A DNA stretch of 64,000 nt from Nephromyces sp. MM_2019 (Eukaryota; Apicomplexa; Aconoidasida; Nephromycida): positions 65,708-129,707 of the forward strand of contig JADHZB010001099.1 of the NCBI GenBank assembly GCA_015657535.1, read 5' to 3'. A program made the translations under genes and the position numbers. This document shows positions 14,321 through 63,601 of this stretch, piece after piece. Position 1 is the first letter of the stretch. Every line of letters starts with the position of its first letter. The notes beneath the pieces are model-generated. The model was not told the DNA's origin, did no database searches, and saw only the letters and a program-made list of their open reading frames with translations.

Positions 14321-14499
14321 ATAGCTTAATCATGCAGAAACAGCTAATAAAGCCTCTTGATTGGCATAAGCAGTATATTCATCTATCAGAAACTGTTAAT
14401 CACCAGTCTAACTTTCTTGCTCTCTTGAAGGAGGGGCTTGGCTTGAATTAAACTGAGATTTTCCTTCCGAAGAGGCAAAACTTCATTAGTTTGTTAATG

Positions 14500-14692
14500 C
14501 TAGGGCTTATAGCACCCATTACTAGAAAAAATTTCGTCCACAAGAATCTTCTTAATGAAACCGCCAAAAGTACCCATGGACTCTTGCTTAACTGGAACTT
14601 TTAGCACACATTGCTTAAATACCCCTAAGTAGTCTGGTGGTTTCATCGACAGAAATACACGCCTTGGATGCTGTGATATCCCCACTTTAATT
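14500..14692 (-). CDS. Candidate terminal exon, unknown product
   Basis: A good acceptor (TGTATGTTTACAG) at 14,693 opens a frame of 63 codons, entered in phase 2. It reads KVGISQHPRRVFLSMKPP, then FKQCVLKVPVKQESMGTFGG, and stops at TAG 14,500-14,502. The composition is protein-like, but no family is recognised and no upstream exon with matching phase was found. It could end a short gene just 5' of U2AF2. Confidence 0.25.
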
Positions 14693-29225: not shown

Positions 29226-29398
29226 GCATTACTTGCATCATTATCCAATGTCTCCTTCACTTAGATCTGGTAAGATGCCATGATTTCCCTTTGAAAAATC
29301 TTTTTGGTAATGAATTGAGCATTATCTATTGCTTATTCTCAATTTCGTGATGTCCTTGCTTCTTTCTGATATTTAATATAATACCCAGTTCTGTAGTC

Positions 29399-30085
29399 AT
29401 GGATGACAAGACTAGGAGGACAAAGGCTGAGAGTAACTCTCTGAGGAACTCTGCGAACTTTCCGGAAATTCGCTTTGTCACTTCAGAATATATTTTATCT
29501 CACTATGATGAGGACACTATGAAAAAAAGAGAAGATTTCTGCGTAAGAGGTGATCTCAGTGCAGAGGAGATCGCCAATCAACAGGATGAACACGCCGGCC
29601 TGCCTGAGACATTAGTTTTGGTTGACTGCCGCTCTAAAACTGAGCAGGCAGTTTCTATGATTAAGAATTCTATCACCTTGGATAATTTTAAGGCTAAAAT
29701 TGAATCCGATAATATTAAAAATAGTAAAATTCTAAGTGATAGTAAGACAGATGAGGCAAACGACGTGTCTCAGGCGGAATTAAAAAAATCCTTGCAACCA
29801 CCCAGCGATGAACTCATAGTTACTTACTGTACAGCTGCTTTCCGTTCTGGACAAAGTGCTAGAGCTTTGAAGAGTGAAAATCTTGTAGAAAACGTTGTAA
29901 ATATGGATGGAATAATTATGTGGCTGCACGCTAATGGCCCGATCACAACTATTGAACGGGATGGAAATGCTGTGGAGACCAGTAAAGTGCATTGTTGCAC
30001 GGAACAAAACGACCTAGCACCTGTTAGATACAATTCTGTTTATTTTGGGTATTTATCGAAGCTTTGGAGCTTTTTTACTGGCTGA
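29399..30085 (+). CDS. Rhodanese-domain protein, single exon
   Basis: 228 residues. Rhodanese domains transfer sulfane sulfur or act as related thiol enzymes through a loop cysteine. Seen: an N-terminal strand EIRFVTSEYIL (24-33), the LVLVDCRSKTEQ strand and CDC25-like turn (72-83) and the catalytic loop TYCTAAFRSGQSA (142-154), with Cys144 and Arg149. NVVNMDGIIMWLHANGP (165-181) is the usual NMEGGI-W--AGGP end of the domain, followed by KVHCCTEQNDLAPVRYNSVY. About 45 Lys/Asp/Ser-rich residues (95-137) are inserted between the DCR turn and the active loop. No signal peptide is evident. ATG at 29,399 fits a normal domain start; an untranslated 5' exon ending at TTCTGTAG is possible. Confidence 0.85.
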   Translation: MDDKTRRTKAESNSLRNSANFPEIRFVTSEYILSHYDEDTMKKREDFCVRGDLSAEEIANQQDEHAGLPETLVLVDCRSKTEQAVSMIKNSITLDNFKAKIESDNIKNSKILSDSKTDEANDVSQAELKKSLQPPSDELIVTYCTAAFRSGQSARALKSENLVENVVNMDGIIMWLHANGPITTIERDGNAVETSKVHCCTEQNDLAPVRYNSVYFGYLSKLWSFFTG

Positions 30086-43262: not shown

Positions 43263-43444
43263 GCGGAATGCATTCATGAGTTCTGTCATGCCACTAGAGT
43301 ATTGCAAGCATTGTGCCTTGAGGGGCGCTTGCGCAAACGATAGAAGCAAAAAAAGTTCAGAATGCACCCTATTCCAACTCCCTAATTTTGAAGCATTAAA
43401 ATATTGTCTTAGAACAAAATCTGAGTATTTATTAACAACTCAAG
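43263..43444 (+). CDS. Candidate Cys-rich exon
   Basis: An open frame reads EYCKHCALRGACANDRSKK, then SECTLFQLPNFEALKYC, and may end at donor CAA/GTAATG (exon end 43,444). It contains five cysteines. The pattern Cys, Cys, then a Cys followed by FEAL resembles the exon at 46,371-46,472 (YCDCQQ ... KCSHSFEAL), so the two may be duplicated first exons of related secreted proteins. The start (ATG 43,276 or an upstream acceptor) is unsure. Confidence 0.3.
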
Positions 43445-44933
43445 TAATGCTTCCAAGATAAATTATTCTATCCAGACTCACCGCAGCAATAATTGCTCAG
43501 ACGATTTCTTGGTACCTTATGGTAGGATGTGGTAATGTGAATGCATGAGCCGCTATAAACGTGCGACGTCTGCTCTGTCCCAGCAGCAAAATTTCTGTTT
43601 GTGTGGCTGATGATAGGTTGTTGTTATTACTAATACCATACAAGAGTAATTGATTGCATATTTACAGGATGTGCAGGACTGCGTGTAACCAGCTGCAAAT
43701 ACAGGTAATAAACTTTTTAGCAAGTGCTTGGGAAACAGTAGAGCCACTCCCCCATCGTCAAAACGCGCCCCTAATTTAAGCCTATCTAGGACTTAGGGGA
43801 GATTCTAGGAATTCATTGCTTTGATGCTTCTACCACATAAAACGACTGTTGAATAGCCTAGAGCAGCATACAAATTTATTTTAAGATAACATTTCAATGG
43901 AAGGCAGTGTAAATATCGCGATAAATCTCTATAGACGATTAAAAGATTCGGTGATTACACTCGATAAGACTCTTCATATGTTTTTTTTAAAAAAATTTCC
44001 AAGAGGTAACGTGTATTATCGGTAAAAATAGATATTATTAGCTGTTCATACAAGTGCGAGGGGACCCCTAATCTCATTATGGTAATGACGCAGCTCAAAC
44101 TGGTGAAAGAAAATGCACAAAAAAATACGAGGTTTTGTATTACACATCTTGCAGCAATTAGGCTCAGTAATCATTAACAGCGAAAAAGAAGTTAGGTCCG
44201 GCGTACTGTAGCGAACTTCTAAACATGGAAAATGAGCTGCATGCTACGTAAACTTTCTAATAAAAAGCGAATTAGCGGAATGCGGTAAAGCCATAGAAAA
44301 AAAATGCTTGTTGAGCGTTCGAGGCAAAAGTTTTATTCTTGCATTTTTAGCGAAGAAGTTCTACGGCCCCTGGTCCCATATCCCTCCAGTCGAAAAATTA
44401 ATACTCGAGTTTTTTTAGTTAAGAAAAGCTGGCTGCCGCAACTTCCTTTGAATTTTTATGCAGCAGGCACTGTATTGAATTAAATAGAAAGGAGCCTCAT
44501 TGCACACCCATTTTTTTGCTGTCATTACATGCTACAATATAGCTATATCGTTGGCATGCCAAGTATGATAAGGCCCTAGGAAATTTTTTGAAAGAATTTT
44601 TCAGATCAGAAAATCCTTCTCTACTAACGCCTTCAGTACACAAAAAAGTCCGCCTGTCATATCATGAATAAAAATGAGCTTGAGGGATATTAATTAGCCA
44701 ACTTCGAATAATTCAAAATACATGGAAGCAAAAAAGTAAGCTCCCATGCCATAGATAGAAGCTACAAAATGAATATCCATGTTTTCACAGCTCCCACTCT
44801 TCGGTGGGCAATATAACGTACTAATCCTTTTTTGTAGACAAAGCACAGAAAGGAAAAATGTAAAACAGACACTTATTGTAGCTATTATAGGCTCAATGGA
44901 AGAAGGCGCTCATTTTTTATGATTTTTAATGCT

Positions 44934-45188
44934 CAGCTGCCTGACTTGCAAGTCGCTACTAATTTAGCTCGACGTAGGTATCGTAGTCTTTCCAAAGTAG
45001 AGATTAAGATTTCAAAACATTTTGGGATATTTGAAAGCAAACTTCCAAAAGCTGTGACTTGCCTCTTGCTCCTCCGTTGCTACCTGCATACGCCTGGTAC
45101 TCTTCTAGCTGCCCGTGAGAGCTTTTTTGCGGTACTAATGTTTTCTACGCAGCGGGCGGCTTTAAGATTAAAAAAAACCTTCAAGTGA
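44934..45188 (+). CDS. Candidate exon, basic and Leu-rich, unknown product
   Basis: After an acceptor near 44,933 (AATGCTCAG) the frame reads LPDLQVATNLARRRYRSLSK, AVTCLLLLRCYLHTPGTLLA and RAALRLKKTF, then reaches TGA at 45,186-45,188 (a donor AA/GTGAAA just before the stop is also possible). It is the first of the plus-strand exon series but has no clear phase partner. Confidence 0.3.
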   Translation, partial: QLPDLQVATNLARRRYRSLSKVEIKISKHFGIFESKLPKAVTCLLLLRCYLHTPGTLLAARESFFAVLMFSTQRAALRLKKTFK

Positions 45189-45617
45189 AAATAAAAGAGC
45201 TCCGTGCTGAAATATTATAGTCGATGGCTGTCTCAATTTAAATATATCTGCAGTTTTGCCCTAGTTACGCAGCCATCGCTGAGCTGTTGTTTTATTTGAG
45301 GCGACTTTAAGCTTCACCGCCAGGCCATCAGGCATGTGGCAAGATAGCGCCTGACAGTAAAGGTGTCGTGCACGTGGCAACGACATTATACCTGGTAGAA
45401 CTGCTCATCTCCGTGTGGGTTACTACACCGCAGCTACGGAGCCATGTAAAGTCACATTAGCGAGAGCAAATTGCCCAAATTACTCATTTATTTTACGATT
45501 TAGCGGCTGCACCTTTGTGCCATCAAGACTTCCCAGCGTGCTGCGCCAAAAAGACCTCGAAAATTACAACGGTTACGGCTTGAAATGATACCGCTGGTGT
45601 GCTTCGGTTGTCCGCAG

Positions 45618-45773
45618 CATTTAGAGGGGGTATAGCTAAACCTCTCGAATTGAAAACTTACTTGATAAAGCTTACTGCAGACCGTGATCCAGAAGCTATT
45701 TTACTCTTGGCTGTTTTGCGGAGGGATTTTTCTAACGTTTCAAGAAATGATATACAGCGCAAATGTACTAAAG
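45618..45773 (+). CDS. Exon, phase 1 in and out, unknown product
   Basis: 156 nt between acceptor TTGTCCGCAG and donor G/GTAAAA. Reads AFRGGIAKPLELKTYLIKLT, then DPEAILLLAVLRRDFSN and RKCTK. Phase 1 at both ends matches the next exon if that exon starts at 46,371. Confidence 0.4.
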
Positions 45774-46303
45774 GTAAAATTCTGTATTAAGGACTTAAAA
45801 TTTAGTATCTAGGCCTGTAAAATTTTGATGACAGAATTTAGTTCCAAAGGAGTGAATTTCATTTTGTTATTTTCTTGTTGGAATATTTATCGCTAATAAG
45901 AGTTAAAATAAATGTCAGACAGAAGTTTGATTTTCGAACCTTAGTATCGCAATAAGCAACCAAACTTCGTTATTCATTCTTCCCTCAGTCAAATCCAGAA
46001 GCGCCGTAAAGGGTGAGATGAAGGGCACTTACGAGTGACTCCTAGATTAAAGCCTTATAACGCGGCTCAATCAGTTGTGAATGAGCATGCTAATAGGAGC
46101 TTTAAAATGACTTTATAATAAGCCACATCTGAGGAAAGCAGGGAACACCTGCGTTAGGGCCTGCAGCGCTAGTTTGAAACACGAAAAAAATCGTAGACAC
46201 AAAGGGCAATAGAGTATCCCGAAATTAGTATTTAAATTCGAGCTTGCAATTCCAAACAAGTGTCTTTGTTGTCCAATGGCCTACAAGACGAACTTATCAA
46301 GAG

Positions 46304-46472
46304 ATGGCGCGCTTCATAATATATTCATACTATTTGCTTGCTTTTTTTATAACTATTTCGAAAAATGCAGGAGCCTATTGTGACTGTCAGCAGACAGGTA
46401 ATAGGCTCTCCAACGAAGAACCTCCGAAATGTTCGCATAGCTTCGAGGCATTGGAGCTTCAGGAAGCACCAG
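46304..46472 (+). CDS. Putative first exon: signal peptide and Cys motif
   Basis: MARFIIYSYYLLAFFITISK followed by NAGA-YC is a good secretory signal with cleavage after NAGA. The mature part has YCDCQQTGNRLSNEE, KCSHSFEALELQEAP. Donor G/GTATCA, phase 1. Alternatively 46,371 is an acceptor (AAAAATGCAG) and the exon continues from 45,773, whose phase also fits. Confidence 0.4.
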
Positions 46473-49400
46473 GTATCAATCAGGGAGAAATGTATTTGTT
46501 TCGTATTACTAAAGTTTTGTAAGAGGAAGATATTGCAAAGCACACGAGCTAAAGTAGGACTAAATATAGTGAACCACGTCGAATTTCTCAGAACAAAACT
46601 TGATGCAGCATTTCACCTGTGTTTCATAATCAAAAAACTTCAATCACCCTTAGAGGTATCAACGTCAGAAAAGCTATCCTACTCATTGTAGCAACTCAGA
46701 AATTACATGATATAGCCATATACAATGAGTTTATGTCCGGTAAGCTGGAAAAATAGTATCGTGCCACCCAGATTCAAGCATAGCCCAGGTCCCACCATAG
46801 ACAGTAAACCCACTTAATGTATTCTATTACATATTGTACAGCGCTCTCTCAAATTAGAAAAGATAATTTTTTTTAACTGGTGATAACTCATTTGTTGAAA
46901 AGAGTTTCCATAGTATTTGTTTTATATCAACAATACCTCAAGTAACTATAATGGGAAATATGAGGTTAATGGAAGTTTTACATGCGCACCAGCTGTCAGC
47001 CATAGAGAACACCGTGCTAAGAAATGTGAGATGATCATGAAATGATGTCTATGAAACGTCCTCAAGTACTTTAGAAACTGCAAATTATTCATTCAAAACT
47101 TTTGCCAACTGAGGCTTCTATCGTTGCAGCTTCCAGAGACTCTATATATAGAGAAGCATTCGCTCAGCTTCGAGAAGATATCGTCCAATATGGTAAGAGG
47201 GAACTTATCGATGACATTCGAAAATGGGAACTTGCTATTCCCGGCTGGCTTTTTAGCAAAAAGAATTTTAAAAATATTCCTAGAACTTGATGTGGTGCTT
47301 TTGTAATGGATCACCACATGATAAGTTTTAAAGGGTTAGCTAGCTGCGCAATACTAAAGGCGAAATTTTCCTTTGCTCCAATCAAAAAAATTGAACCCGT
47401 AATTTCTTGTAGAATAAGGCAGAGCGTAAATAAGACCCATATTTAAACTCGCCATTATAGCGCTAAGAGGATCAAGCAAAAACTTGAAAAACTTTTTTGT
47501 GGGTAGCTTAGTTTTGAAAGCTATTGTGCCCAATTCTTGCTTAAGTATGGGTGTATTTTTGTTAGGTGCATAATAGATTGAAGCATCAATAGTCATAGTC
47601 ATTAAACTACGAGCTTCAAACAGAAAATTTTGGAAAATTCAGTATAAGTCATAACCGTTTTACCTTGAAGTTACGTTGATTATCGCTGCGACTCATAAGG
47701 CTTATTTCCATCTGATATACTGTAAAGTAATTATTTGAAGTGGCTGAAATAAAAATTATTTAGCGGTTATTGTTGCAATATTACAAACATATGTTTTTGA
47801 ATATAGTCTAGGTGGTTTTCTGTGATCGTGGTTCATCTTGTAGTGCGTTTTGATGATGCAGATTTTGATGGTATTGCGGGTAATAAACTACTCCCTAGAA
47901 TATCTGGCAACTATCTTTTTATGCTGTGGCCTATAAAAAGGGAAGAAAAAATTGAGGTGCTTCAAGAGATTTATTACGATATTGAATCCAAACTACGCAA
48001 GCCAGGTGGGAAAGACTTTCGATTTGAGTCAATATAAAGAAAAATAAAAATAATTTTGAAATGCTAAAATAATATAGGTTTTTTTGCTACGATAAATACT
48101 CAAAAGTATAAGAAAAAGCCTATGAGGGATAGAATCTTTAAGTGTTTGATATTAGAATCTGTGCCTTCAAAGTTTTTAAGGTTGAACAAAGGATAAACGC
48201 TGTTAAAGTTAGTATTATTTCAGATCAGTCATTGGTAGAAGCTTTGCTTGGCATTGTTGGCAAGCGGCTCTATGCAAAGAAGTCTCTAAAGGGAAATAAA
48301 CTGATGAGGAAGGAAGCCCAAAAAGCGCTAGAAAGCTTTAAAGCTGTAAAAAAACGTCGGAAGAAAAAAAACAAATTCATATTCTTGATAAATTTTTTGT
48401 TTTGCCTTTATGCCTAACAACTTAAAACTTATTTTTGACCATATAAAATAATATTAAATTAAAATTTCTTTTAGCGAAGCAATGCTTTACTAGCGTGTTA
48501 AAAGTGTTACGTAAAAATTGAGTTTCTGCCTCCTATTAATTCATAACTCTTAAGTATTGTTTAGGATAAGATACATTCCCTCCCTGCGATCGTAGTTACA
48601 TGGCGAGTTTATAAAACGCCATACATATTTTAGGGAGTTAGCTACTTTTGGCGTGGAATGTTTTCAGAAAATTAGATCATTTAATAGATAAGGCTATAGA
48701 AAGCTTTGGTATCAACAAGAAAGTTTATAGTTTACATGTCAATAGCCACAAAAGATGTGAAAGTCATGCTAAAGATATCCTTTTTAAAGTGACCTGGAAT
48801 TTGTGGAGTTCCAAATACAGGACTGCTTTTCAGCTTCGTAAATTAATCGGAACGTATCATTTTCATTTTCTGAAACATTGGGCTTGAAAAAGCATCCGCT
48901 TCTATGTTTAAAAAGTCTTCAAAAATGTAAATTGAATTCTAGCTTTTGTGCATTTTTAAAAGCTCCAAAATTATTTTTTTCACGATTGTGGTTGCGTTTG
49001 TTTTATACTGCATCTATCATAAAAGGCCTTATTAAGTTTAGCCATTTCAAACTCTCAGAGCTACCCTCCTGGAAACTTACAAATGAATTAAAAGCCCATC
49101 CTTTGCTGGCATTGCGCTCCCTTATAAAAATTGCTGTGCAGGAAATTGCACCCAAAACTCTTGATTTAGCGGTTTTCAACTCAATTAGCATGTGCAGTTC
49201 TCCCCCCAAAAAAATGCGTGGAATTGTTGCAGAGAATAAAGAAGCTTTCGAGACAGGAAATAAGGTAGCCACTGGAGTGCTCTACGTGGGATTTATCGTA
49301 ATAAGGGCGCTTATACCACCCGTCCTTCCCGGAGCTTTTATTTTTTCTTCAGTAATAAGCACCTTGTGTTTCGCAGCAATTCCACAGTTCTTTATTGAAC

Positions 49401-52400
49401 TCGGGAAGCGCACACTCAAATTTTTGAAAGTGTGGGCAAAGAAGAAACTGTTTGAGCTAACTATACCAAAACATGCAGGTAAGTTATTTTTTCAGCTTAA
49501 AGTTTTTTCATAAATATTAACGACCAATTTTTTATCTTTCCTTAGACGGAATACAAATAGTGGAAACCCCTAAGAAGAGGAAATTAGTAATGAAATTTGT
49601 TTGATTACTTGGGTAGCATGGAATTGAAGTTTGCAAAAAATATTTTGCACTTTGAGTCGCTTATAAAAATGTTATATTTGCGTTAAAGCTTGGTACAAGT
49701 TTTATATTTTCTTTTCATAACCCCATGAAAGTACTCGTTTGTCAAGATAGATGTTACTTCTTACTGGATGAGTGACGGACTTATTGGTAGACGCTTTTGT
49801 ATGAAAAGAATGAAAAAATTAACGCAATGTAATAATTAAGCCAACAGTTACTTTTCTAATTTTAATGATCCTCATTACAGAAAATATAATTCCACTGAGT
49901 AAAAAGGAGATAAAATTGCTTTATACACAGGATGCCCCATCTCTTCTGATGCTAGCATTTCAATTAGAGCCAGATTCTATAGATACTGTAAATTCAATTT
50001 CCTTTCCACTTACATTTTCCGCTAAAGTATTTGTATATTCCAAAGCTTTAATCAAACAGAAATTCGAAATCCTAAAGTATGATGAAGCTACTTTCTCCGC
50101 ATACAAGGTAATCGGACGACGTTCATGATGTGGATATCCAGCCTTTTTTTTTGAGTAGTAAAAAAATTTCCTCAACCAAGTTTAAAGTCACAGTTAAGAA
50201 TGTAGCTTTAGATATATATGCTTCATAAAATGCTTCACTATATTTTTTAAATTTAGTAAGACTTTTGAGTATAAAAAAAAATTTAATTCGTAATAAACAT
50301 ACTTTTCACTGCGAAGTCATTTTCCCCATATATAGGAAAATCATGTTCCCTTAAATTGCGATATTCAATGGCAAGTTCCATTTTTAAAAGAGAGCACAGC
50401 ACATTTTTAAAGAATAAATACTGATTGAATATTAAGGCTACAGATTTAGTGTTAAATGTTTTTTTTCAGCAGAGTACACTGTTTTTAAAAACTCATTTTT
50501 CAGATCGAAAAAAAAGCTCGACAGATTCAAGCAGTGGATTGGCTCATACAGAATTCTATTAAATTTCATCTCCCAGCGTTTGCAGCTTTGTTTGCAAAGC
50601 AAATATATCTTTTATGTAAAGCAATAATTGGGCAATTTCATAAAGAAAAAGTTGCCCTTAATGCAATGCACCCCAACGATACAAAAAAAATATCAAGTTT
50701 TTTTAAAGGAGTAAAGTGGAGCATTTATGGTTCGTTATTTAACAAAGCTTCAGTCAAACTTTTTAAAGACTTGTTAAAGAAATCCTGCAAGCAAATCATT
50801 TTTGGAGCTACAAAAATAGGTTAAAAATTTATGCATGTTTTCTTCTGTCGAGCCTATATTTTACTTTGAAGAATAGCAGTTATATTGCTGGATATCGTGA
50901 TTTATTATAAACAAAAACTTCAAATACTTTTGAAAGTTACGCATTTAAGATCGTTCAAGTGGATTTATTATTTATAACTTAATGTCTGACTTTATATGTT
51001 TTTAAAGCTGTTATTGTTATTTTCGGAAAAAGATGCTAGGTTGCAAGATATTTTTCCCACATTTTCATGATTGAAGCAAACTAACCAATATTTCATTCTT
51101 GCACTAACTTAAGAGTACAAACCACCAGCAAATACCTTTCCCACTATATTAGCCTGTGAAATATTTAAATAGCTAGAAATAATACGCGGCCACACCTGTC
51201 TACAGCAGTAAGAGATTCCCTAATTTTATGTGTCGATTAAAATGATTTCCAGGCCTTCTCCTCAGCACAAAAAATTTAGGAGTACCTCTATTACCAGATA
51301 TTAGCAAAAAAACAAATCTGCAATCTTTTTTCAAAAAAGCTTTTAAAATAAAGAAAAAAGATCTATTCAGCCCCAACTTTCAAAGAGCACTTCTACGCAA
51401 AAAACTAACCAAAGCAACAAATTTAATTAAAGAAGGCTCAAAACAAATATTTAAACAAGTCATTGAGCTAGTCGATGCACACAGAATTTTTTTATCACAA
51501 GTATGCAAAGTTTCAAAGCAACACGGTTGCGTAGGAATCGATCAAGATGCAAATAGCGGAATGGAAATACAGTCATTACAAGAGAGAATTATCATATCTG
51601 CAATTTTAGCCTCTCATGAAATCCTGAATACTGCCTCAACTACTAAAATGGATAAAAAGGATTTTATTCTGCATTCCGTAAGCAATTTAAAAAGTTCCTT
51701 GGAAAAACTAGATAACAGCCTAAACATCCAAACTCAAGGTAATTAAAAATTAGGCTAAAGAATATTTGCATGAATCACTAGATTTTATATATAATTTTTG
51801 CAAAATGAAAACGTTGCCCCTAATATGTGCTAAAATTTGAGCGTTAATGATGAGCTTTTGACCTATTTTTACTTCTCTTTGCTGAGATCTTGCATACGCA
51901 GCATTAAAAAATCATGCAAGCATCTTCATTCCTTACAAACGTTCAAGTCAATGCTTTACGCATGCAATTTTCAGACAGCTTCCATCATAAATTTATTGCA
52001 TTTCTGTCAGGTTTATCCATCAAATTCAAGAAACGGAAAAAAAATTCATAAAAGCAATTTGAAATTTACAAACTCCTCTATGCTCAAATGTTTTTCAAGT
52101 ATGTGCATGTTGCTGAGTTACTCACATTTTCAAACTTTTCCATCAATTTTATGGTGACGCATATCCTTCGTTTTGTATAAGTTATTGTTTTAAAATGTGG
52201 ATAAACTTTCAAAGCTTAAAAAATTATTAAATTAGATTTCGAAGCCTTATCATTAGAAAGTCCTTTTAATAGCGTAAATAAGGAATTAAGCAACTCAACT
52301 AGCCTGCTTTAAAGCTATTGAATCTACGCTCAAAATTTTTGATTTTGCACAAATTTTTCCATTTTACAGGATCAATGGGAAAAATTGACTCAAATCCTTT

Positions 52401-55400
52401 GAGTGCGTTTTCGTTCTATCAACTTTTCACAAAAAATAAAATTGATAAATCAACACAAAGTTAGTGATAAATTAAAAACAAAAAAGGCATGCTTCTTATA
52501 TAATAGCCCAAGGATGTGTTATCTTTATTGCAGTTTAAATCCTGTAGTTTTTGGCCTTTAATTTACATACCCAAATTATTAATTTAAGGTGTTTATGCCC
52601 TAATTTCATTTTGGAAGAATGATAGAATGTTTCAATTAAAAGCCAATCTAATGCAGATAAACTTATAGAAAGAACGTTAAGAAAAATAAGAAATAAATAA
52701 GAAAATTCCAGCTTTTATAGGGTAAAAGATAACATGTTTAACCAAATAAAATTGTAATTTTTTTTAGAAATTAAGGCATTCAGTACCAAGGCTAAAGAAA
52801 AGCTTTTCAAAATTTTTTTCACAATAATGGCTGTTGATTCGATAGCAACAGTAAAGGAGCTTCTTTTGATTCTTGCCTCTTTGGATAAAGGCCTAGGCAA
52901 AATAACAAATAACTTATTGGAGGTTCTTGATAAACTTCCAAATCATTTCTCTCTTAATGGATACCAAACTGCTTTTTTGGGTGCACTGGAACAAGCAAAG
53001 CCAACCAAGTTTGAGCTAAAAAACTGCGTAGCGCTGTATAAAATATTATATCACCTAAACTTTATGTATAAGCAGCAAACCGAAAATGTAAGCAAAGACG
53101 TGTTTTACATGCTATCAATATTTGATCATTGCCTTATTTTATAAAAATACATGCGCCGTTAAAAACCCAACTGAAATAAATATTTTTGGTTTTTACATGA
53201 AATTTATGCTATTTTGATACGACAATAGGACAATTTAAGCTTTAAAAGCACTAAAAAAACTTATTTAATTGGCACGATACAAAGAGCTTAGTCCAAAACT
53301 TACCTTAGCAAAGAAAACATAATTTATTAAATGGATATGTTTTAAATAAAACTTAAAGGTTTGAAAAATAAGACTTTTGTATTCGCACAATTAGTGATGT
53401 GCTTGATGTAGCGGCTAAAAAAAAATAGGAAACTTGCATACTTTCTATCTTCAAAAACATCTCTTCTAAGCTACATAAAAGCTATCAAAATGCAGATTGT
53501 TTAAAAATATCTTGCCCTTCAACTTTAAAGACTACCGTCGCTGTATTTAAAGGTGGCAAAGCTGCGTAATTGAAAGCTCACATTGAATTAATTTAGGATT
53601 GTGGAAAAAAAGTTTAGTTTGTTTAAACTAAAAAATTTATTGTTCGTACAGGATTTTCTATCGGTGGATGCAATAGTAAATAATCCTAAAAGGGAGAAGA
53701 ACTTTGAAAATATCGAGAAAGAACAAAAAAGAGCTTCACAGAGTAACTCTTATCTTGTGCTTTCAAATTCAAAAGGTATTTTTAAAAAACTGTATGTATT
53801 TTGTTACTTAAGTTGCTAGGTTGCCGGCATATATAATAACGTGATATAGCCAGTTATACCAGATTTTTAAAAAACAAAAGAAGTCGAGTGGCTTTAAAAT
53901 GACTATAGCATGTGTTAAAATTCCTTGTGCATTACGAAGCAAAATTTATAGGCACTTTTGTTTGTGCATCAAGCTAGACTTGCTAACCCATTTATAACAA
54001 ATTAATTAAAGCATGAAAAAATGATATTTCATAAAAATGCAAATCAGCTCTGATTTTACAGCTTTAAACGATATTTAAAACGCCTTAATCTTTTGAGCTT
54101 CTAACAATGATTAAAGAATTTGAACATATCCGCAGCACGAATAGCCTTAGTCAAAAAATGTATATGTTAATTGGCTACAAGGTAAAATATTTGAGTTCAT
54201 CCCAAGGAAAGGGCAGCTTGCAAAAATCACAGAAGATAAAACTTTTGAGATTGGAACTAAGTTATATTTGGCCAAGTCACTTGGAAAAGACAACAAGCTT
54301 TTAGAAATATTTCGAAATTCGCAAGATGAACAAGCTCCAAGTTCCACTGATAAAAATAAAGATAGTGGTAAAAGAATAATTCTAAAAGGGAAAATGGTTA
54401 GCCACTTGATATAGAAAAAAAAAATTTTTCTGCTAAAATTCTGAAAATTGAAAGATATGGAAGGCATTGGGCTGCAGATTTTCAATTTTACTTATATACA
54501 GTCTTGGTCTAATAAAAATTATTCCCAGTTTCTTTTTAAGTTAGAAATATTTTAAACAGACTTTTTAGTTTAGTAGCTGTTTTCGTGCAAGAAAGTACTT
54601 TAAAATGCCTGTAATGGTTTATATGTTACAAAAAACAATTATTACATTATTTTTTGAAAGAAAATCAAGGTCAAAGTATCAACGTGATTTCATGTGTGAC
54701 CAATGCAAAGTAGCCAAAAATTAAAAGTTAATTCTCAAAGCCTCAATTTTCATAAAAACTACTTGTAGAAGTTACATAAAGACAGGTTTGAGGAGTCCGT
54801 AACCTTGGCGACTCAAGGAATCCTATGGTCTACCAAAAAGTTTTCACATTATGACGCGGAGCTGGTAATAAGATAAATAATATAATGATGAATGCTCCAA
54901 AAAAAAATGAGTAAAATAATCATGCTATAAATTATTTATGAATATTATCCAAATGAAATCTTTTTGCAAACTAAGCAAAAAAAATTATTAGCTAATAAAT
55001 AACAAATAAGAGAAACTTTTTAATAAGAATTATGTGTCACTAATATTTCGCTGAAATTTATTTTATTTTCTTTAATTATAGCATGGAAAGCAAATGAGTT
55101 TGCAAATTTTTATTTTATACAGATCAGCGCCTTAATAGCTAAAGCTCAAACATCATATTATCCCAAACAAAAAAGAGACCAATTTTACAAACGCTGCACA
55201 CCCCAAGATTTAAACAGTGTTTTGATATATTTTGACAAAAAGGAAACCAATACCTCGGAAACTATAAATAAACACGCAGCTATAACTAGAGTTCTAGCCA
55301 AAGACGTATCACACAAAATTTTGGACATAAAGAAGCAGCTAAAGTTTTATGAAAATATTACACCATTATATTATCTTATGCAAAAGTATAGGAAGTTCAT

Positions 55401-58400
55401 TTCACACTCGAGAGCTGGAATAGCACTACTTGTGCGTCTACGAGAAAATTTCTTTGAAGCGTCCAACGGAATCAAGCATAAGCAAGGCTCCAAAGAAACA
55501 GAAAAGCAAAATTTATATGATAAAGCGGCAAGACTAGCAGTCAAAAAAATAGCAGTTGCGTCTTATAATGTAACTCAGGTACCAGAGAGCAGAATAAAAA
55601 ATATACCAGCAAAGTTGTGGAATATGCAAAAATTAAATGCTTAATCCTAGGCTAAAAGATATAAGACAACTTGGTTCAATAATGAGATTTTTTAATTGTC
55701 TTGAGTTTTGGTATTCATTACTCTTCTTTTTATAATCTAAATATCATTAGCTCTTATTTTTTTAATTTAATTGGCGAGCACGTAGTATGCTATTTAAATA
55801 TTCCTGTTGGCTTATATAAAAATATTAATTTTATTTTTTATTGCATCTAGAGTTTAGACTCCGATAGTTTTCAAACTATGCAGACATAAAAGGCACTACT
55901 GAACATATAGCAAGCCGCGTATCGTTTTGATTTTCTGCTTTAAAAATAAGATGGAAAGTGTATAGGGTTTAAAATAATTGTTTAAAATTATTACAACCCT
56001 GTGGGTAGCTGCTATTCCAACAGAACTTTGCATATATTTTTGCACAGCGCATTCCATTATCTGTTTTTATTATATCTCTTGGTTTTTTAAAAGGCTTGAG
56101 AGCTCAACCTAAGGTTATTAAGTTTTTTCCTTGTTAGCAATCCAGTGTATAAACTTTTTCTTGGTAGCACTAAGCGATTACTCAAAATAAAATCAGAAAC
56201 TGTAGTCACAAAATATAAAATAATTCGACTACTGAGATTTTGCAGTTATCAGAGGAAGAAGAAAAAGTGCTAGATACAATCTTTGAAAGTTTGAAAAAGA
56301 GCAAACGTGCACGAACATGGCGAGAATATTTTGGAAAAGCGAAACTTGACCAACACCTTTCTATAGAAAATCGCCTCAAGACGAAAATTTTGAAAAGCTT
56401 GAAGGCAGTAAGTATAAAATTCTCAATATATAATAATCAACTAGCCTAATTCTAAGAACTTTTTTACCTAGCCATATTATATTCCCCATGTAAAATTGAT
56501 AACTAATTACAATTTTTGAAAATCTGTTAGGCTAAGAAAACCGCAATTTCGAAGTTACCAAGTTATTCACCAGTGAGGCTTAACCTAAGAAGGTGATTCA
56601 TTTGAACTAAGAATGCTAGTATAGGAAATCAAAAAAACTTTTCATCAGGGTCAAAGCAGATGTGACTCGTAGTGCACAGCAAATAGAATAACTGAATTTA
56701 GACTCTGCTTGGCACAAATAATTGAGCATTAGGAGCCCTCATACAATGAATTTATAAGTAGCTATACTCTATATTATCTTTTCTTTCAGCTGTGGTATAT
56801 TAGAAGATTGAAAGTTTTAGTAGCAACCAACTTTATTGCAGAAAATTTAAGTTTGAGAAGTGTTTGTCAAGATGCATTGGTTTGTTTCCTCTTTTTTATA
56901 GTTGAGTAGCCCTAGTCCTTTATATTGTATTGGAAAACAAGAAGCCCTTGTTTCGCCTAAACTTGTCGCGCAGGTATTTGAGGAAACTGAATCTCCATGA
57001 AAGCTTTTTAATTAGCTTATTTTTGAAGCATTTACCAGAAGAGCCTACTGGAAACTTGTTGAGCCAAAAAGAACTACAAGTTTATATAAGTTTGATTAAT
57101 TTTCTCAAAGACTATATCGGCACTTTGAAAGACAAAGAAATATACACCATTGCTGACTTCATGAAAACTATGCCTCGCAACTTGGAGGATTCGCAAAGTA
57201 AGCGCTAATATGCAGATAAAAGAAATTTTGAAATTTGAGCATGCAGGCATTGTAACCTAGCAGCATAAAATAAGTACCACAAGGAGGAGTTATACAAAAA
57301 AAAAGATTTAATAGAACCTTACCCAAAAAAGTGACATACTAGCACATGCCCCCAAAACATTGATGCCTTATAAAGTCTTAAATAAATAATGAACTGACTA
57401 TTTTTAAGTTTTAAACTAAACGGCAAATAATTTAGTCACATACTGGCAAAAAAAAAGATGCTTACGCTACACAAATAAATTTGTATAATATGTAGAACCA
57501 ACTACTCGGAATGGATTATATGCTTCTTATTTTTAGCATAACGCAAATGGCAAATAGATAAAGTTTATGGATATACTCAGGTAGCTAGAGTAAAATACAT
57601 GCTTTCAAGCTATAGTAGCCAGTTTCCTTGGCTCATAGGATTTATACGGATAAAAACTTCTGTGAACATCAAAATAAAAAGACTACGGCGTAAAGGTAGA
57701 ATAAACCCCAACGTCGTAGGACCAAATAATAAAAAAACATCCGCATGTCGCTTTAAAAATTATAAAGAAGTATAAATTTTCATTTTTAAAGATTCTTTCG
57801 TGGTAAATCATGGCCTAGATTATTCAGCAGTTGCTAGCACCTAAAAATTTTGAAAGTATGAAATGCTAAATTTCTTAAGCAAGCTAATCTCTTTCGTCTA
57901 ATGTTTATGTTCAAATAAAGAGAACACCGCCAAAGTTTTATATAGCATTGCCTTTAAAAAGCTATCCTCCACCAAACCTTATCATGAAATTATGTGCAGC
58001 CATTATAAGCGCTCTATTAGATAGCCGAATTAACGATATATCACATAACTTATCTAAAGGACAAACGGCAGATGAACTCAGTTTATATGATAGAGCTTGT
58101 GCTGGGAAAATGGCGGAAACTTCTGAGGCTACGATGCATGTCTGGATCGAATACCTAGGAATGCTACAACAGATTATAGAGGAAAACAGGCGGCGGTTTC
58201 ACATCACCAACGAGTTAGTATCAGCAGTGAAACAACGGGCGAAGTCAACTCGGGAATATGATGACCTGGCTATGCTGGATGCTACCGAGCTGGAGATTAT
58301 TGCTCGCACGCACTCCGAATTTAAGGTGGAAATATCCACACTTAATAGTAAGCATATATTTGATACTGCCTTTGAAAGCAGCGTTCGTCCATTACGACTA

Positions 58401-61400
58401 ACTCAATTTATAAAGCTTTGGAAATTGTTGATGAGTTTCTTTGGAGTAATTAGATTGTTCTGCTGGTTGGCGATGAAAAGTCCAGTAATGTTAGGTGGGA
58501 TGAAAAAGATTGTTAATGATTTCTGTCTGATGAGTGTATGTTCCAAGTGTTGCATAGAATCACAAGTGGCTGGTAAGTACGACGGCATCAAAATGAACGT
58601 CGTCTTGAACTTTTTGATAATATTTAAGCTTCTTTAGTCGTGATTTCTGTAGTGAAGTTACAAAATAATACCAATTGTAGAAATACCCAGCATATTTCCA
58701 GTGATTAACTGTCTTTCACGCTCTCTGACACATTGTTCATAACCAGGTTTAGTGTAATGAGGAAATTAAGAATAGGAACCACAAAATTGCACAAAAATTT
58801 CCTTTTTCGCTGAGAAAAATTTAACCCGTTTTATTGCTTTCCCTATCACGCAGCTTATTCGGCCGACACGCTTAGGCAGGGTTATACAGGAATATGTTGT
58901 TACATCAAACAGATTAATTTTTGAAACATTGCGAGCTGCCATTGTTGATGCGTTATACTTTAGTTTGGATGAACCCAGGGTTTTAAATATTATACTGGAC
59001 TACTCGGCTTATGAGAAAACTGTGGCACTTGCTTATAGCGCAATAAGCAACATTTTATAGTTTATTGAAAGCTAATTCTCATGAACTAGGTCTGCATTCT
59101 GTCGATAAAAAAGGGTTGAGGAAAATTTTAGTTCAGTTTCATATGTTCAAACATATTTTGCGGAAAGCTTTGAAAAAAACTGCCGAAATGCAGCGATGCA
59201 TCATCTTTGAAAACTTTTTTCGCTGTTTTGCGTACAGAAAAGTTCAGAGATGCGCTAAAGCAAGGTAAAGCTAGAATATATATGATGCATGAGTTGGATT
59301 AAGTCTTTATACTCACGAGAATTTTCAGTACCTTTTTTCATAATAAGAGTACATAATATATAAATATGTAGATGATACTGAAGCCATATTTCTATCTTTG
59401 CCTAAACGCACAAGCATCCAAGATAGCCCTACAAGATACAAAAAAGAGCCAGCGAGCATCGCAATTACGGGCCTATATAGTAGGAATTACAATAATTAGC
59501 GAGCAGACATATGCCGAGCTTATAAAATGAAGCAAACATTTCGGACGTACGGGTCATGATTTTATATGATAAAAAATGAACCTATTCGCGTTTGCGAATA
59601 GTTCTTCCCGACGGAATTACTAAGGCTGTCTTCTTCAAGCCTCCCCAAAGAATATTTCCGCATTGTCAACAGAATCAAACGTTATTGCTAATTTTAATTA
59701 CGCAACTTTGAGATCAAGATAGGGCAAGTAACGGCCAGAAAATTGCGTGCGCTTCTTGCGAAAAATAATTCCTTGTTATTTCACTGCATCGTGTACACTT
59801 CGGAAATTACTATGCCTACTACATTAACTGGACATAAGAGCTGCCCGCTTTGATGTCGTCAAACTTAATCGATTGCAGCTTGCGTGACATATTATTTTCA
59901 ATGAGCATGTGAGAGTAATGGAAAAATTATACTATGCAATTGCTGTTTTATATTCAGATAAGCTCAGTATCTTAGCGCAGATCGACCAGCCTGATGCTAA
60001 AGATACTCTGATTGGCCTGAATAAAAGCAAACTTTATGATTTAGAAGAGCTCAAGAAAGGCTTATTCCACCTGCGAGTAAATGGTTATATGGCTTTTAGG
60101 GCCACGATAGGTGATATTATTCGCGCTTATCCTTTAGCAAGGCTTGAAACTCATACTGAACCCGCAGGTAAAAACCTTGCAGAAGTTGTGATTTATGGCA
60201 AGGCAAATTTCACTCGCCATAAATATATCGTAGCGTTCTCTTCAGCTTAACTTTATAAACATGCCAATATGCTTGCGTATTAAAATTTTTGGCTTGATGG
60301 ATTAAATTCCTTTGTCTCTGTATCAAATTAACACTTTTGCAATAATATATAGTCACGCTAAATTTCTGTGTTGGGGCACGAAGACACGATACTCGCTTTT
60401 ACGTTGCAGCACTGTTTGAAAATAGGAAAGTATGAAGGTAGTATATAGCAGCGATAAATGTGAAGCAAAATAATTATACTACCGGCAGTTTTCCCATACA
60501 GATATTATGGAAATGTTGCATTTTTGGAATGAGCTAAAGGTTATTCCAAGAAAATCAAGGCAAAAGTATTACTATCAATATTTGCAACTTTTCAATGGGC
60601 TATACGCGCTGGATTTCGAGCTCATGCAATCCGCGAGAATGAAGGATTCAATTCAAAAGCAATGCTCCAGAGAGGCTAAAGTGTTTCCCATGAGCAATTT
60701 GATACCGCAATATATATCAAAGAGTTTAAAGGCTATTCATCAACTTAAAAAAAAGTTTTTCAATCATGGAATTTCTTTGTTCAAATACAACAGTACACAT
60801 TTGCTCGAAAATTTGAGAGCGAAGGTATTTCAGGAAGTGCTAAAGCATGACATATTAATAGAAAACGTACGAAATATTGGTACTTTCAAAGTATTTCAGG
60901 ATAAAATCCTCCTTGTAATCGACAAAGGTGATGATACTACTCAGTAAAAAAATTCGGTGCAAAAGAATTGCAAAACTTTTACACTGGAATCTAGTTGCAG
61001 TATCAAAAAAATTTTATCAGTAAAATTGAGACGTATGAAGCAGGCTTGGTGTTAATGCAAAGTACCTTTAGTAACAAATCAAAATACCGCATTTGTGTAC
61101 TTGACATGATGCGAAGTCGGCAGTGGTTGCTTTTTAGTAAGAGTTGCTGCATACTCCTAGCATAAAGTCATGATCTCCAATAATTTATATATAAGTTATC
61201 ATCTTTAAATAGAGAAAAAATAAAACTTTGAATCGTGCAGCAATGATAGAAGAATATCTCTACCTACATAAAAAGAATTCAAGCCGCCTTGAAAAGTTTT
61301 GGAAAAAAAAAGGCACCGTATTGCATATCAAGCGTAATATGTCAGAAGTTTGCAATGAACTTTATCCTCCGGAGTTGATCGAAATCATAAAAAAAAAAGA

Positions 61401-61823
61401 TCAGCCATTGTATCAAAAAATGAGAAAGCAACAAAATAAAACCTTAAATGATACTGGCCTAAGGGAAACAACTTATCTATTAGAAAATGATGGTTTAAAC
61501 GATGAATACCTATGGGAAAAAGTGCTAAAGTACAAGGCTTACAGTTACCGCCAGGAATATAAGAATGTAAAGGCAAACAGCCAAATTAATGATCCTTGGC
61601 CCACAATAGTAGGGAATCCATTTCAAAGTGCGGTGCATCTTATAAAAGTCATGGTAGAAGGTGAGTGAAATTTTTATATTACTTATATTAATTTGTCACT
61701 ATATATCAAGTTTCTATCAAATTATTTCGGTAGAATAGCCGGTTATATTCAAATTTTGCTTCCCTTGACAAGCTGAAGCTCTCTTCAGCTCTGTGGATAG
61801 GAAGGCCTGAGGAGACAGTTTAG
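46304..61823 (+). CDS. AT-rich multi-exon locus: giant helical protein gene or tandem gene set, unknown function
   Basis: At least 21 exons on one strand can be delimited by GT-AG signals and open frame, listed separately below. They total about 2,000 residues. The residues are rich in Lys, Leu, Ile, Phe and Asn, form predicted amphipathic helices, and contain no motif I recognise. Most junctions are phase 1 on both sides; the phase 0 junctions occur in matched pairs. The sum could be one very large protein or several tandem genes: in-frame stops end possible terminal exons at 49,604, 59,060 and 61,823. The frame from ATG 46,304 starts like a signal peptide (MARFIIYSYYLLAFFITISK then NAGA), but the same T-rich DNA also looks like a 3' splice site. 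The exons are more AT-rich than the U2AF2 and SFT2 exons. Confidence 0.45.
47130..47192 (+). CDS. Exon, 63 nt, phase 1/1
   Basis: Acceptor CTATCGTTGCAG, donor G/GTAAGA. Reads SRDSIYREAFAQLREDIVQY, an amphipathic helix. Confidence 0.45.
47844..48005 (+). CDS. Exon, phase 1/1
   Basis: Acceptor TTCATCTTGTAG, donor G/GTGGGA. Reads RFDDADFDGIAGNKLLPRIS, YLFMLWPIKREEK, YYDIESKLRKP. Confidence 0.45.
48224..48345 (+). CDS. Exon, phase 1 in, 0 out
   Basis: Acceptor TATTATTTCAG, donor GTAAAA. Reads QSLVEALLGIVGKRLYAKKS and a basic helix KLMRKEAQKALESFKA. Confidence 0.4.
48642..48788 (+). CDS. Exon, boundaries uncertain
   Basis: Frame reads AWNVFRKLDHLIDKAIESFG, then VYSLHVNSHKRCESHAK. Phase 0 at both ends if the acceptor is GAGTTAG and the donor GTGACC; the frame stays open to TGA at 48,887. 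The following long exon is in another frame, so either a ~100-nt intron or a frameshift separates them. Confidence 0.35.
48893..49478 (+). CDS. Long exon with internal repeat and two hydrophobic segments
   Basis: About 195 codons, exit phase 1 at donor G/GTAAGT. Contains a duplicated module: LKKHPLLCLKSLQKCKL near the start and LKAHPLLALRSLIKIAV about 65 residues later. Two hydrophobic stretches near the end (GVLYVGFIVIRALIPPVLPG and FIFSSVISTLCFAAIPQFFI) could form a membrane hairpin. The 5' edge is weak (AAAAAG acceptor). Confidence 0.45.
49546..49604 (+). CDS. Possible terminal exon of a first gene
   Basis: A strong pyrimidine-rich acceptor (TTATCTTTCCTTAG), entered in phase 1 as the previous exon requires across a 67-nt intron. 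Reads DGIQIVETPKKRKLVMKFV then TGA. The PKKRKLV ending resembles an SV40-type nuclear localisation signal. If used, the locus has a gene end here; if skipped, the exon at 49,881 also fits in phase 1. Confidence 0.45.
49881..50107 (+). CDS. Exon, phase 1 in, 0 out
   Basis: Acceptor CCTCATTACAG, donor AAG/GTAATC. Reads ENIIPLSKKEIKLLYTQDAP and LMLAFQLEPDSIDTVNS, then KALIKQKFEILKYDEATFSA. Confidence 0.5.
50504..50819 (+). CDS. Exon, phase 0 in, 1 out
   Basis: Acceptor CATTTTTCAG, exit G/GTTAAA. Reads IEKKARQIQAVDWLIQNSIK, FHLPAFAALFAKQIYLLCKA and a basic end LFKDLLKKSCKQIIFGATK. The phase 0 entry matches the preceding exon exactly. Confidence 0.5.
51253..51738 (+). CDS. Long exon, phase 1/1
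   Basis: 161 codons between acceptor GATTTCCAG and donor G/GTAATT. Reads LLLSTKNLGVPLLPDISKKT, RKKLTKATNLIKEGSKQIFK, and SLQERIIISAILASHEILNT. The segment LIKEGSKQIFKQVI resembles LLKKSCKQIIFGAT in the preceding exon. Confidence 0.5.
52370..52459 (+). CDS. Short exon, phase 1/1
   Basis: Acceptor TCCATTTTACAG, donor A/GTTAGT. Reads SMGKIDSNPLSAFSFYQLFT then KNKIDKSTQ. Confidence 0.4.
52768..53087 (+). CDS. Exon, phase 1 in, 0 out
   Basis: Acceptor TTTTTTTTAG, donor AAT/GTAAGC. Reads KAFSTKAKEKLFKIFFTIMA, KELLLILASLDKGLGKITNN and ALYKILYHLNFMYKQQTEN. The frame would stop at TAA 53,144 if the donor were not used. Confidence 0.5.
53652..53775 (+). CDS. Exon, phase 0 in, 1 out
   Basis: Acceptor TTGTTCGTACAG, donor G/GTATTT. 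Reads DFLSVDAIVNNPKREKNFEN then EKEQKRASQSNSYLVLSNSK. Confidence 0.45.
54182..54396 (+). CDS. Exon, phase 1 in, 0 out
   Basis: Reads KIFEFIPRKGQLAKITEDKT, KLYLAKSLGKDNKLLEIFRN and a polar QDEQAPSSTDKNKDSGKR before donor ATG/GTTAGC. The acceptor (GGCTACAAG) is the weakest part. Confidence 0.4.
55123..55578 (+). CDS. Long exon, phase 0/0
   Basis: 152 codons between acceptor TTTTATACAG and donor CAG/GTACCA. Reads ISALIAKAQTSYYPKQKRDQ, AGIALLVRLRENFFEASNGI and QNLYDKAARLAVKKIAVASY. The LYDKA block recurs as LYDRA in the exon at 57,946. Confidence 0.5.
56246..56407 (+). CDS. Exon, acidic then basic helix, phase 0 in
   Basis: Acceptor ACTGAGATTTTGCAG. Reads LSEEEEKVLDTIFESLKK, RARTWREYFGKAKLDQH and RLKTKILKSLKA. 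Donor GTAAGT (phase 0, end 56,407) or the overlapping GTATAA (phase 1, end 56,411), which fits the next exon. Confidence 0.45.
56910..57197 (+). CDS. Exon, about 96 codons, phase 1 out
   Basis: Reads ENKKPLFRLNLSRRYLRKLN, SFLISLFLKHLPEEPTG, INFLKDYIGTLKDKEIYTIA then MPRNLEDSQ, with donor A/GTAAGC. Acceptor within 56,901-56,915 (TTTTTTATAG region); only phase 1 entries keep this frame. A phase 0 reading of the first 72 bases (LSSPSPLYCIGKQEALVSPK) is an alternative. Confidence 0.4.
57946..58572 (+). CDS. Longest exon of the locus, phase 1/1
   Basis: 208 codons between acceptor TTTTATATAG and donor G/GTAAGT. Reads MKLCAAIISALLDSRINDIS, ELSLYDRACAGKMAETSEA, MHVWIEYLGMLQQIIEENRR, and a hydrophobic segment LMSFFGVIRLFCWLAMKSPV near the end. 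Shares the LYD(K/R)A block with the exon at 55,123. Confidence 0.5.
58876..59060 (+). CDS. Possible terminal exon of a second gene
   Basis: Entered in phase 1 (acceptor CGCTTAG) it reads RVIQEYVVTSNRLIFETLRA, DALYFSLDEPRVLNIILDYS and AYEKTVALAYSAISNIL, then TAG at 59,058-59,060. The better acceptor at 58,853 (TTTCCCTATCACGCAG) gives the same frame in phase 0, which would need a different upstream donor. Confidence 0.4.
59061..59264 (+). CDS. Candidate exon, phase 2/2
   Basis: Reads LKANSHELGLHSVDKKGLRK, KHILRKALKKTAEMQRCI and RCFAYRKVQRCAKA before donor AG/GTAAAG. Its acceptor AG would coincide with the TAG stop of the preceding exon, so the two may be alternative ends. Confidence 0.35.
59914..60167 (+). 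CDS. Exon (or first exon from ATG 59,918), phase 1 out
   Basis: Reads MEKLYYAIAVLYSDKLSILA, DTLIGLNKSKLYDLEELKKG and ATIGDIIRAYPLARLETHTE before donor G/GTAAAA. ATG 59,918 could start a third gene; otherwise a weak acceptor (TGTGAG) joins it in phase 2 to the preceding exon. Confidence 0.45.
60502..60927 (+). CDS. Long exon, phase 1/1
   Basis: 141 codons between acceptor TTTTCCCATACAG and donor G/GTGATG. Reads EMLHFWNELKVIPRKSRQKY, LYALDFELMQSARMKDSIQ, YISKSLKAIHQLKKKFFNHG and KVFQDKILLVIDK. Confidence 0.5.
61241..61660 (+). CDS. Long exon, phase 1/1
   Basis: 139 codons between acceptor GAATCGTGCAG and donor G/GTGAGT. Reads MIEEYLYLHKKNSSRLEKFW, SEVCNELYPPELIEIIKKKD, TTYLLENDGLNDEYLWEKVL and GNPFQSAVHLIKVMVE. 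It is unusually rich in Lys and Asn. Confidence 0.5.
61789..61823 (+). CDS. Terminal exon of the AT-rich locus
   Basis: A strong pyrimidine tract and acceptor (GAAGCTCTCTTCAG) across a 128-nt intron. The phase 1 entry gives ALWIGRPEETV then TAG at 61,821-61,823, matching the preceding exon's exit phase. Confidence 0.4.
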
Positions 61824-62347: not shown

Positions 62348-62850
62348 TTATTTCATCAGGCGTTGTAGATTTCTTGTAACTTTTTCAACTACATTGTACG
62401 GGATAAAACATGAACTTTGCAGGTTAACAAGTGTAATGAGAGAATCTTCTATTTTTTGTATTATTTTGGGCCATGTCATGAGAACTGCTGTAAACTCGAA
62501 CAGTCGAACGGTAAAAAATTCTTGAAGTGCACTCTTGGGCATAAAAGAGGCGAAATAGAGTTGGCTAACCTGGCGGAAACTATTACAGTACAATCTACAC
62601 TGAGACAAGCATCAAGGAAGATATTGCAGCTTTATGATAGATAAGGAAGTACAAATACCTGCCGTGATTCCATCATAGCAGTTTCAATCCGCGAGGGTGA
62701 GGTTTTAGAGGGTAAAACATAGCAGTCATTTTCCATGTGATCTGCACGAGGCAGCGCAACATCTAGTATTGCTTTGTCCCTGGTATCTGTGTTGCCAGTA
62801 AAAATTAGTACACTCCGGTAATGTGAAATATTATCGCCGTACAACTGTCG
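62348..62850 (-). CDS. 3' end of a minus-strand gene, two exons, weak NuoG/NDUFS1-like look
   Basis: Exon 62850-62659 (64 codons, phase 0/0) has a strong acceptor (TTATTTTCATGCTTGCAG) and donor GTATTT. It reads HYRSVLIFTGNTDTRDKAIL, DVALPRADHMENDCYVLPSK and SRIETAMMESRQ. After a 59-nt intron (acceptor GATGCTTGTCTCAG) exon 62599-62348 reads CRLYCNSFRQVSQLYFASFM, TWPKIIQKIEDSLITLV and IPYNVVEKVTRNLQRLMK, then TAA. The order G-D--A--DV-LP-A---E---YV followed by W-KII and (I/L)PY resembles the C-terminal molybdopterin-like part of the 75-kDa complex I subunit, but the match is weak and the metal-binding domains are outside this piece. Treat the function as unknown. Confidence 0.4.
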
Positions 62851-63601
62851 CTGCAAGCATGAAAATAAGGTGTGAACCACCTTTTGAACCAGAACAAATT
62901 TTGCAAAGCAATAATTTATCCTTCAAGTCTACTAATGGGAAAAAAGCTCTTAGGTATTTATAAATTCTACATTCACGCATAATTTTAGCCACATTCTTTA
63001 GCAGAATATGACTTGCTTATTAAATATGTCACAATAAGCTATATATAGCAAGTTCATATTTTCTGTGCATACTCATTACATTTAGATAAGAAGCAAGCGG
63101 CTGAAAGAGCATATCGCGATGAAATAGTGTCACAATCGTATTTTATTTATGGAATGCACTGGGTAATATATAGTTGATAGCAATATGGTAGTAAAGAGTT
63201 TACAATATATATAGTAAGTCACGGTTTCACTAGTTTTTGAAAGTTTTTTAATTGTACCACATGCCATAGGCATACTGGAAGCAAACACCTCAACCATCCT
63301 GAGAATAGTGAAGTGACTTTCCAGCCTGGTAGCTTCGGAAGGGAAAATCGTTTGGCGCAGGTCTTACGCAATCAAGTAAAAATGTAGGTAACTCTATGTA
63401 GCATATACTCCACACAAAAAAAAGTGTGCCCAAGTACGGTTTAGCACGCACTTGTGCATATGCGAATGCAAGCGGCGTGAATATCCCGAGGGTCAGACTA
63501 ATTTGCTTCGGGGAAGCGCAAGGAACTTGTCTAGACAGCACAATGAAACGGAGGATTTCCAAGGCTATGCATGAAGCTAACTAGCCAAATAAAGCAGCCA
63601 C

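Follow-up and report, generated by a model that had tools for sequence, protein, structure and literature searches.

Proteins of the CLAG/RhopH1 family are large, helical, intron-containing and secreted, and the rhoptry neck protein RON2 carries as its hallmark a C-terminal membrane segment that adjoins an AMA1-binding loop bounded by cysteines. For Toxoplasma RON2, a predicted helix content of 54% has been given (PMC12381366). Toxoplasma RON5 has been described as a protein of 1,702 residues that has a signal peptide and, within its N-terminal pro-domain, a hydrophobic stretch, and the Toxoplasma junction complex as organised and stabilised by RON5 (PMC3961375). Plasmodium ron5 genes have been listed with 31 exons, that of P. 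vivax with 3,477 bp (PMC4359499), and the authors of a gregarine study stated that they did not identify moving-junction orthologues (PMC9250747). Here, a giant predicted gene was analysed in a window of 64,000 nucleotides (the whole stretch of DNA under study; positions 65,708–129,707 of contig C569, which ends where the window ends, in an assembly of 48.3 Mb and 1,127 contigs) and was compared with these proteins. The block at 48.8–61.7 kb of the window, on the + strand, is an array of exons far beyond chance and reads best as one gene rather than a tandem family. The most specific single proposal is one gene of about 23 exons with a secreted product of about 1,950 residues that would serve as a RON5-like scaffold of the invasion machinery; it is offered tentatively and rated rather unlikely.

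Stop-free stretches were counted in 48,800–61,823. Those of at least 100 residues numbered 12 on the + strand and 1 on the opposite strand, and 100 first-order Markov shuffles of the same interval gave a mean of 0.33 (maximum 3). At a length of at least 150 residues the counts were 6 on the + strand and 0 on the opposite strand, with no more than 1 in the shuffles. Exon chains were predicted with a purpose-written program that scored codon usage and splice sites. Trained on codons from the 55–62 kb exons, it gave 48.8–54 kb a score of 53.5, against 0 on the opposite strand and no more than 0.7 in 30 shuffles. Trained on codons from the 49–54 kb exons, it gave 54–62 kb a score of 51.3, against 0 on the opposite strand and in each of 30 shuffles. 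Each half of the block was recovered in this way from the codons of the other half, with splice-site tables and noncoding background common to both, such that the cross-training was independent for codons only. Chance open frames as the source of the block were ruled out by the shuffle counts and the cross-trained prediction. Six exons at 49,881–53,775 had been delimited with matching phases in an earlier reading of the window made from its letters (the sequence-only reading), and they held up: their borders were GT..AG and the five junctions left one stop-free frame. With 49,042–49,478 added upstream, exactly one frame was open in each of the seven exons and the junctions were in phase in 6 of 6 cases, the chance of which is 1/729 if phases are random.

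Gene models were built between a fixed start, ATG 46,304, and a fixed end, TGA 61,666–61,668. Three penalty settings, from stricter to laxer, gave 23, 24 and 28 exons and products of 1,953, 1,975 and 2,013 residues, in agreement with the "more than twenty" exons and "about 2,000" residues claimed previously; the 23-exon model is reported here. This model spans 46,304–61,668 on the + strand with introns of 117 to 802 bases, and GT..AG borders and matching phases are found at all of its junctions, both being enforced by the program. All 23 exons are predicted to belong to one transcript, with exons 1–5, 13, 14, 19 and 20 the least secure. The gene likely ends at TGA 61,666–61,668 rather than at 61,823; in some runs a short extra 3' exon (61,789–61,823) was reached via a splice after 61,660. 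The content of guanine plus cytosine (GC) was 0.364 in coding sequence, 0.309 in introns, 0.375 in the window and 0.461 in a neighbouring 3.4-kb exon. The block had been called more AT-rich than the housekeeping genes next to it; part of this AT-richness is intronic.

The 5' boundary was examined with the same predictor. Run on 43,263–48,800 entire, it gave 16.1 (opposite strand 0; 30 shuffles, maximum 4.2). The upstream part alone (43,263–46,303) scored 0, and its 60 shuffles averaged 0.30 and reached 6.6 at most. The downstream part alone (46,304–48,800) scored 16.1, where none of 60 shuffles exceeded 1.7, and its predicted exon chain began at ATG 46,304. The start of the array at 43,263 in the sequence-only reading was not confirmed. 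We infer that the gene starts at ATG 46,304; against this start, the run on the entire 43,263–48,800 placed exons 44,919–45,096 and 45,681–45,773 ahead of 46,371. The N-terminus encoded from this ATG, MARFIIYSYYLLAFFITISKNAGA, was judged signal-peptide-like by eye and by hydropathy. By a simple hydropathy measure, none of the other open ATGs on the + strand in 43,263–49,000 (23 in all) was as hydrophobic. A secretory route is predicted for the giant protein.

The predicted 1,953-residue product, described earlier as Lys/Leu-rich, contains 12.6% Leu and 11.5% Lys, is very basic with a net charge of +98, and has 16 cysteines. Hydrophobic segments were found at residues 1–19, 155–173 (spanning the predicted junction of exons 3 and 4) and 347–378, and weaker ones at residues 511, 801 and 1465–1493. 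Two single exons were folded with AlphaFold2 without an alignment and gave helices and no strands, at mean predicted local distance difference test (pLDDT) values of 49.5 and 48.5. From these two low-confidence models, the fold is predicted to be mainly helical.

Relatives were sought in Pfam, PDB sequences and a protein database. For most searches the query was an earlier spliced model of 1,574 residues, made up without exons 1–5 and 19 of the final model. In Pfam, the cut-off was reached by none of ten open frames (nine of them in the block), the sub-cut-off matches within the block being HAT_Syf1 (expectation value (E) 0.0053) and DUF4144 (E 0.007). A second set of ten open frames gave a Rhodanese match at 29,351–30,082, outside the block, as its sole match over the cut-off. 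Neither a 1,579-residue spliced query (best DUF4144, E 0.24) nor the 410-residue N-terminal part (best HTH_61, E 0.2) reached the Pfam cut-off. Among PDB sequences, the 1,574-residue query and one long open frame had no match at E up to 1; another open frame had a single chance-level match (E 0.17) and, once trimmed, none at E up to 10. The Pfam and PDB-sequence libraries include the CLAG/RhopH1 family, and no match to it was obtained in the Pfam scans of spliced queries or in PDB sequences. Protein-database searches returned nothing at E up to 0.1 for one open frame among 79 short candidates (full-length relatives fell outside the length limits), no match at E up to 0.01 for query residues 1080–1574 among 3,450 candidates, and no match at E up to 10 for query residues 760–1574 among 6,442 candidates. 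The protein-database search requires shared exact 5-residue words, was run without a positive control and is weak for distant relatives. Because of these two features and the use of the earlier model, its negatives leave room for a diverged ortholog. One open frame searched by tblastn against phage had no match. The searches of Pfam, PDB sequences and the protein database support the description, already given in the sequence-only reading, of a giant protein with no known motif, encoded here by a phase-consistent 23-exon model; no protein-database match was obtained, no Pfam match exceeded the cut-off and no PDB-sequence match was credible.

Paralogs were searched for in the genome, as the sequence-only reading had proposed, with six open-frame queries representing 6 of the 23 exons (57,888–58,574; 61,213–61,665; 60,474–60,944; 51,255–51,737; 49,043–49,477; 55,123–55,578), and none was found. 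Apart from the gene itself, the last-exon query alone yielded a genome match at E <0.08, to a short stretch of contig C54 (E 1.9e-7). There, C54:20416–20540 aligned with window 61,233–61,353, the start of the last exon, over 125 bp at 81% identity (85% over the best 102 bases). The C54 stretch sits inside an intron predicted for a gene of the HSP70 family (best PDB match, 78 kDa glucose-regulated protein homolog) and is taken for a relic that derives from part of the last exon rather than for a paralog. Within the protein, no off-diagonal self-match was found at E up to 1, and the best exon–exon match in the block had an E of 0.028 over 18 residues. A tandem gene family, the other form that the array had been thought to take, was rejected on the lack of self-repeats, on this best exon–exon match and on the absence of a paralog for the exons queried.

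The genome gave two matches to PF02430 (AMA-1), both over the cut-off. One of the matching open frames was compared with PDB sequences and matched 4z80 at E 4.4e-54; the deposited name of this entry is EGF family domain-containing protein, and we take it to be an AMA-family structure. Weaker matches of the same open frame, from E 1.7e-6, were to chains that bear the name apical merozoite or membrane antigen 1. The AMA-1-matching open frames lie on the opposite strand of L003 at 494–1465 and 1477–2382, and the latter continues into a long Thr-rich repeat (TTTTR units) that is mucin-like. AP2 domains are best known from plants and apicomplexans; the genome contained 64 matches (E up to 0.001), of which 44 exceeded the cut-off, and matches also arose in one bacterial control genome. 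Together, the AMA-family gene and the many AP2 matches suggest an apicomplexan genome.

The exons of the model, all on the + strand, were placed as follows. Exon 1 (46,304–46,491) begins at the predicted, inferred start ATG with the signal-peptide-like segment, then YCDC; an alternative run started at 44,919. Exons 2 (46,609–46,739) and 3 (47,137–47,302) are of low confidence, and a different frame at 47,075–47,251 equalled exon 3 in score. Exons 4 (47,812–48,005) and 5 (48,224–48,355) are of moderate confidence; exon 4 forms hydrophobic segment 155–173 with exon 3, and the segment hence relies on the predicted junction. Exon 6 (49,059–49,478; acceptor possibly at 49,042) is of high confidence and encodes two adjoining hydrophobic stretches, residues 347–378. 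High confidence was also assigned to exons 7 (49,881–50,107), 8 (50,504–50,819; donor at 50,729 in one run), 9 (51,253–51,738), 10 (52,370–52,459), 11 (52,768–53,087) and 12 (53,652–53,775). Exons 13 (54,212–54,396; start at 54,182 or 54,217 in other runs) and 14 (54,769–54,864) are moderate, and exons 15 (55,123–55,578) and 16 (56,246–56,411; end at 56,407 in other runs) are high. Exon 17 (56,910–57,197) is high in its 3' part, with a start at 57,039 in other runs. Exon 18 (58,000–58,535) is high; in other runs its donor lay after 58,572, out of frame with exon 19 (58,854–59,059). Exon 19 is moderate, was left out by other runs and keeps the frame when spliced to the donor after 58,535. An apparent frame break at 58.57/58.85 kb was removed by this donor. 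Exon 20 (59,194–59,264) is low. Exons 21 (59,958–60,167; 5' boundary possibly further upstream), 22 (60,502–60,927) and 23 (61,241–61,668; including the TGA stop) are high.

Other features were observed in the window. A single open frame at 48,890–49,130 (+) carries two similar short motifs, HPLLCLKSL and HPLLALRSL, spaced by about 70 residues, and the first of the pair, HPLLCLKSL, falls outside exon 6. At 3,360–14,793 (–) is a predicted SR-rich gene that contains the 3.4-kb exon with GC 0.461 and an RRM match just under the Pfam cut-off, and that resembles a U2AF-type splicing factor. The open frame with the Rhodanese domain at 29,351–30,082 lies on the + strand (E 4.3e-8). Open frames at about 62,351–62,922 (–) may represent a convergent gene just beyond the giant gene; the predictor scored 0 on both strands of 62–64 kb, this putative gene included.

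Several readings of the block were weighed. It may comprise two or three same-strand neighbour genes, with the weaker 5' exons (46.3–48.4 kb) separate and the giant gene starting at about 48.6–49 kb; the signal-peptide-like start would then belong to another gene. This division is possible but doubtful. The 5' stretch scored only 16.1, an intron of 703 bases lies between exons 5 and 6, a short gene ending at 48,417 is obtained when the predictor is given 46,304–48,800 alone, and splice choices at 54–57 kb and 58.5–60 kb differ among runs; against this, all junctions of the 23-exon model are in phase, though phase is enforced by the program. A decaying or misassembled gene, in which the frame changes near 48.87 and 59.05 kb would be damage or assembly indels, is improbable. 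Open frames of different phase do overlap at 48,842–48,887 and 59,047–59,060, and the last exon has a partial copy inside a predicted intron of another gene, but many long exons are intact, as are their splice sites, and use of the donor after 58,535 keeps 58.5–59.06 kb in frame.

It is possible, if short of probable, that the protein is a giant of secreted or structural kind that is specific to its lineage and lacks a counterpart in Toxoplasma and Plasmodium. This reading is an umbrella over roles in the pellicle, the vacuole or host-cell remodelling, and no single role under it was rated above the RON5-like scaffold. The lack of relatives in the Pfam, PDB-sequence and protein-database searches, and of a paralog for the exons queried, is consistent with it; the need for exact 5-residue words, however, makes a fast-evolving ortholog indistinguishable from an orphan. 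That the protein is an undescribed giant basic helical secreted scaffold of a divergent apicomplexan lineage, used in host-cell entry or remodelling and without a model-parasite counterpart, is conceivable and somewhat doubtful.

The RON5-like proposal came from the combination of an intron-rich gene, a likely secreted and apparently helical product, no detected paralogs and an AMA-bearing apicomplexan, for which reason the protein was compared with the rhoptry neck proteins that partner AMA1. Under this proposal, the signal peptide would direct the giant protein to an apical secretory organelle, its N-terminal part with the hydrophobic segments would serve as a targeting or pro-region, as in Toxoplasma RON5, and its long basic helical body would pack with partner proteins and, during entry, stabilise a junction complex where the parasite meets the host membrane. 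A RON5 would be expected at the rhoptry neck and the moving junction, in a complex with RON2 and RON4. A number of points weigh against it. As parallels to RON5, length, hydrophobic stretches and a high number of introns are weak, and across the window 44 of 605 open ATGs (19/298 and 25/307 by strand) were at least as hydrophobic as ATG 46,304, so the signal-peptide-like start is weak as sole evidence. The single-exon folds were too low in mean pLDDT for a fold search. No homolog was found in the protein-database searches, which had no positive control, and a reasonably conserved RON5 ought to have surfaced if the database contains one. For RON5 itself, the number of membrane segments is described as disputed, with six, two or none in the Plasmodium proteins (PMC4359499), and the membrane segments of Toxoplasma RON5 have been predicted elsewhere, at 716–725 and 1488–1497 (PMC12381366).

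Taken together, the core of the sequence-only reading is sound, its 5' end was over-extended and its tandem-family alternative fails, and its interpretation is partly supported. What emerges is a coding block with good support, for which a single-gene model is plausible and no relative was detected, and whose putative place in host-cell invasion is plausible. A host-interaction role may be inferred, and is somewhat strengthened by the signal-peptide-like N-terminus and the apicomplexan signs. If the protein is a RON5-like scaffold, the junction complex would extend to a lineage in which divergence has put the protein beyond the reach of ordinary searches, and the speed at which the core of this complex can change would be shown; if it is an orphan, it would be a large candidate for lineage-specific host interaction. 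Under either reading, the exon map gives transcript work and profile searches something definite to aim at.

In comparison with known systems, the protein shares with CLAG/RhopH1 its large size, introns and predicted helical character and secretion, and with RON2 its large size, likely secretion and predicted, mostly helical character. The final hydrophobic segment ends at residue 1493 of 1,953 and is followed by three cysteines (1504, 1724, 1849). Identity with RON2 was rejected on a C-terminus lacking the membrane segment and the cysteine-bounded AMA1-binding loop, and RON2 is a poorer fit than RON5 because of this C-terminus. The product has 1,953 residues, compared with 1,702 for Toxoplasma RON5 and a gene of 3,477 bp in P. 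vivax. The hydrophobic stretches lie at residues 155–173 and 347–378 here, whereas that of Toxoplasma RON5 is placed within 34–314 (PMC3961375), and other predictions differ. The protein is long like RON5 and its predicted gene has many introns, as in Plasmodium; it may also share with RON5 a signal peptide, predicted here, and one or more hydrophobic stretches near the N-terminus. This likeness is one of anatomy, and none in sequence was demonstrated. Among the rhoptry neck proteins, RON5 appears to be the best anatomical fit, through parallels rather than homology.

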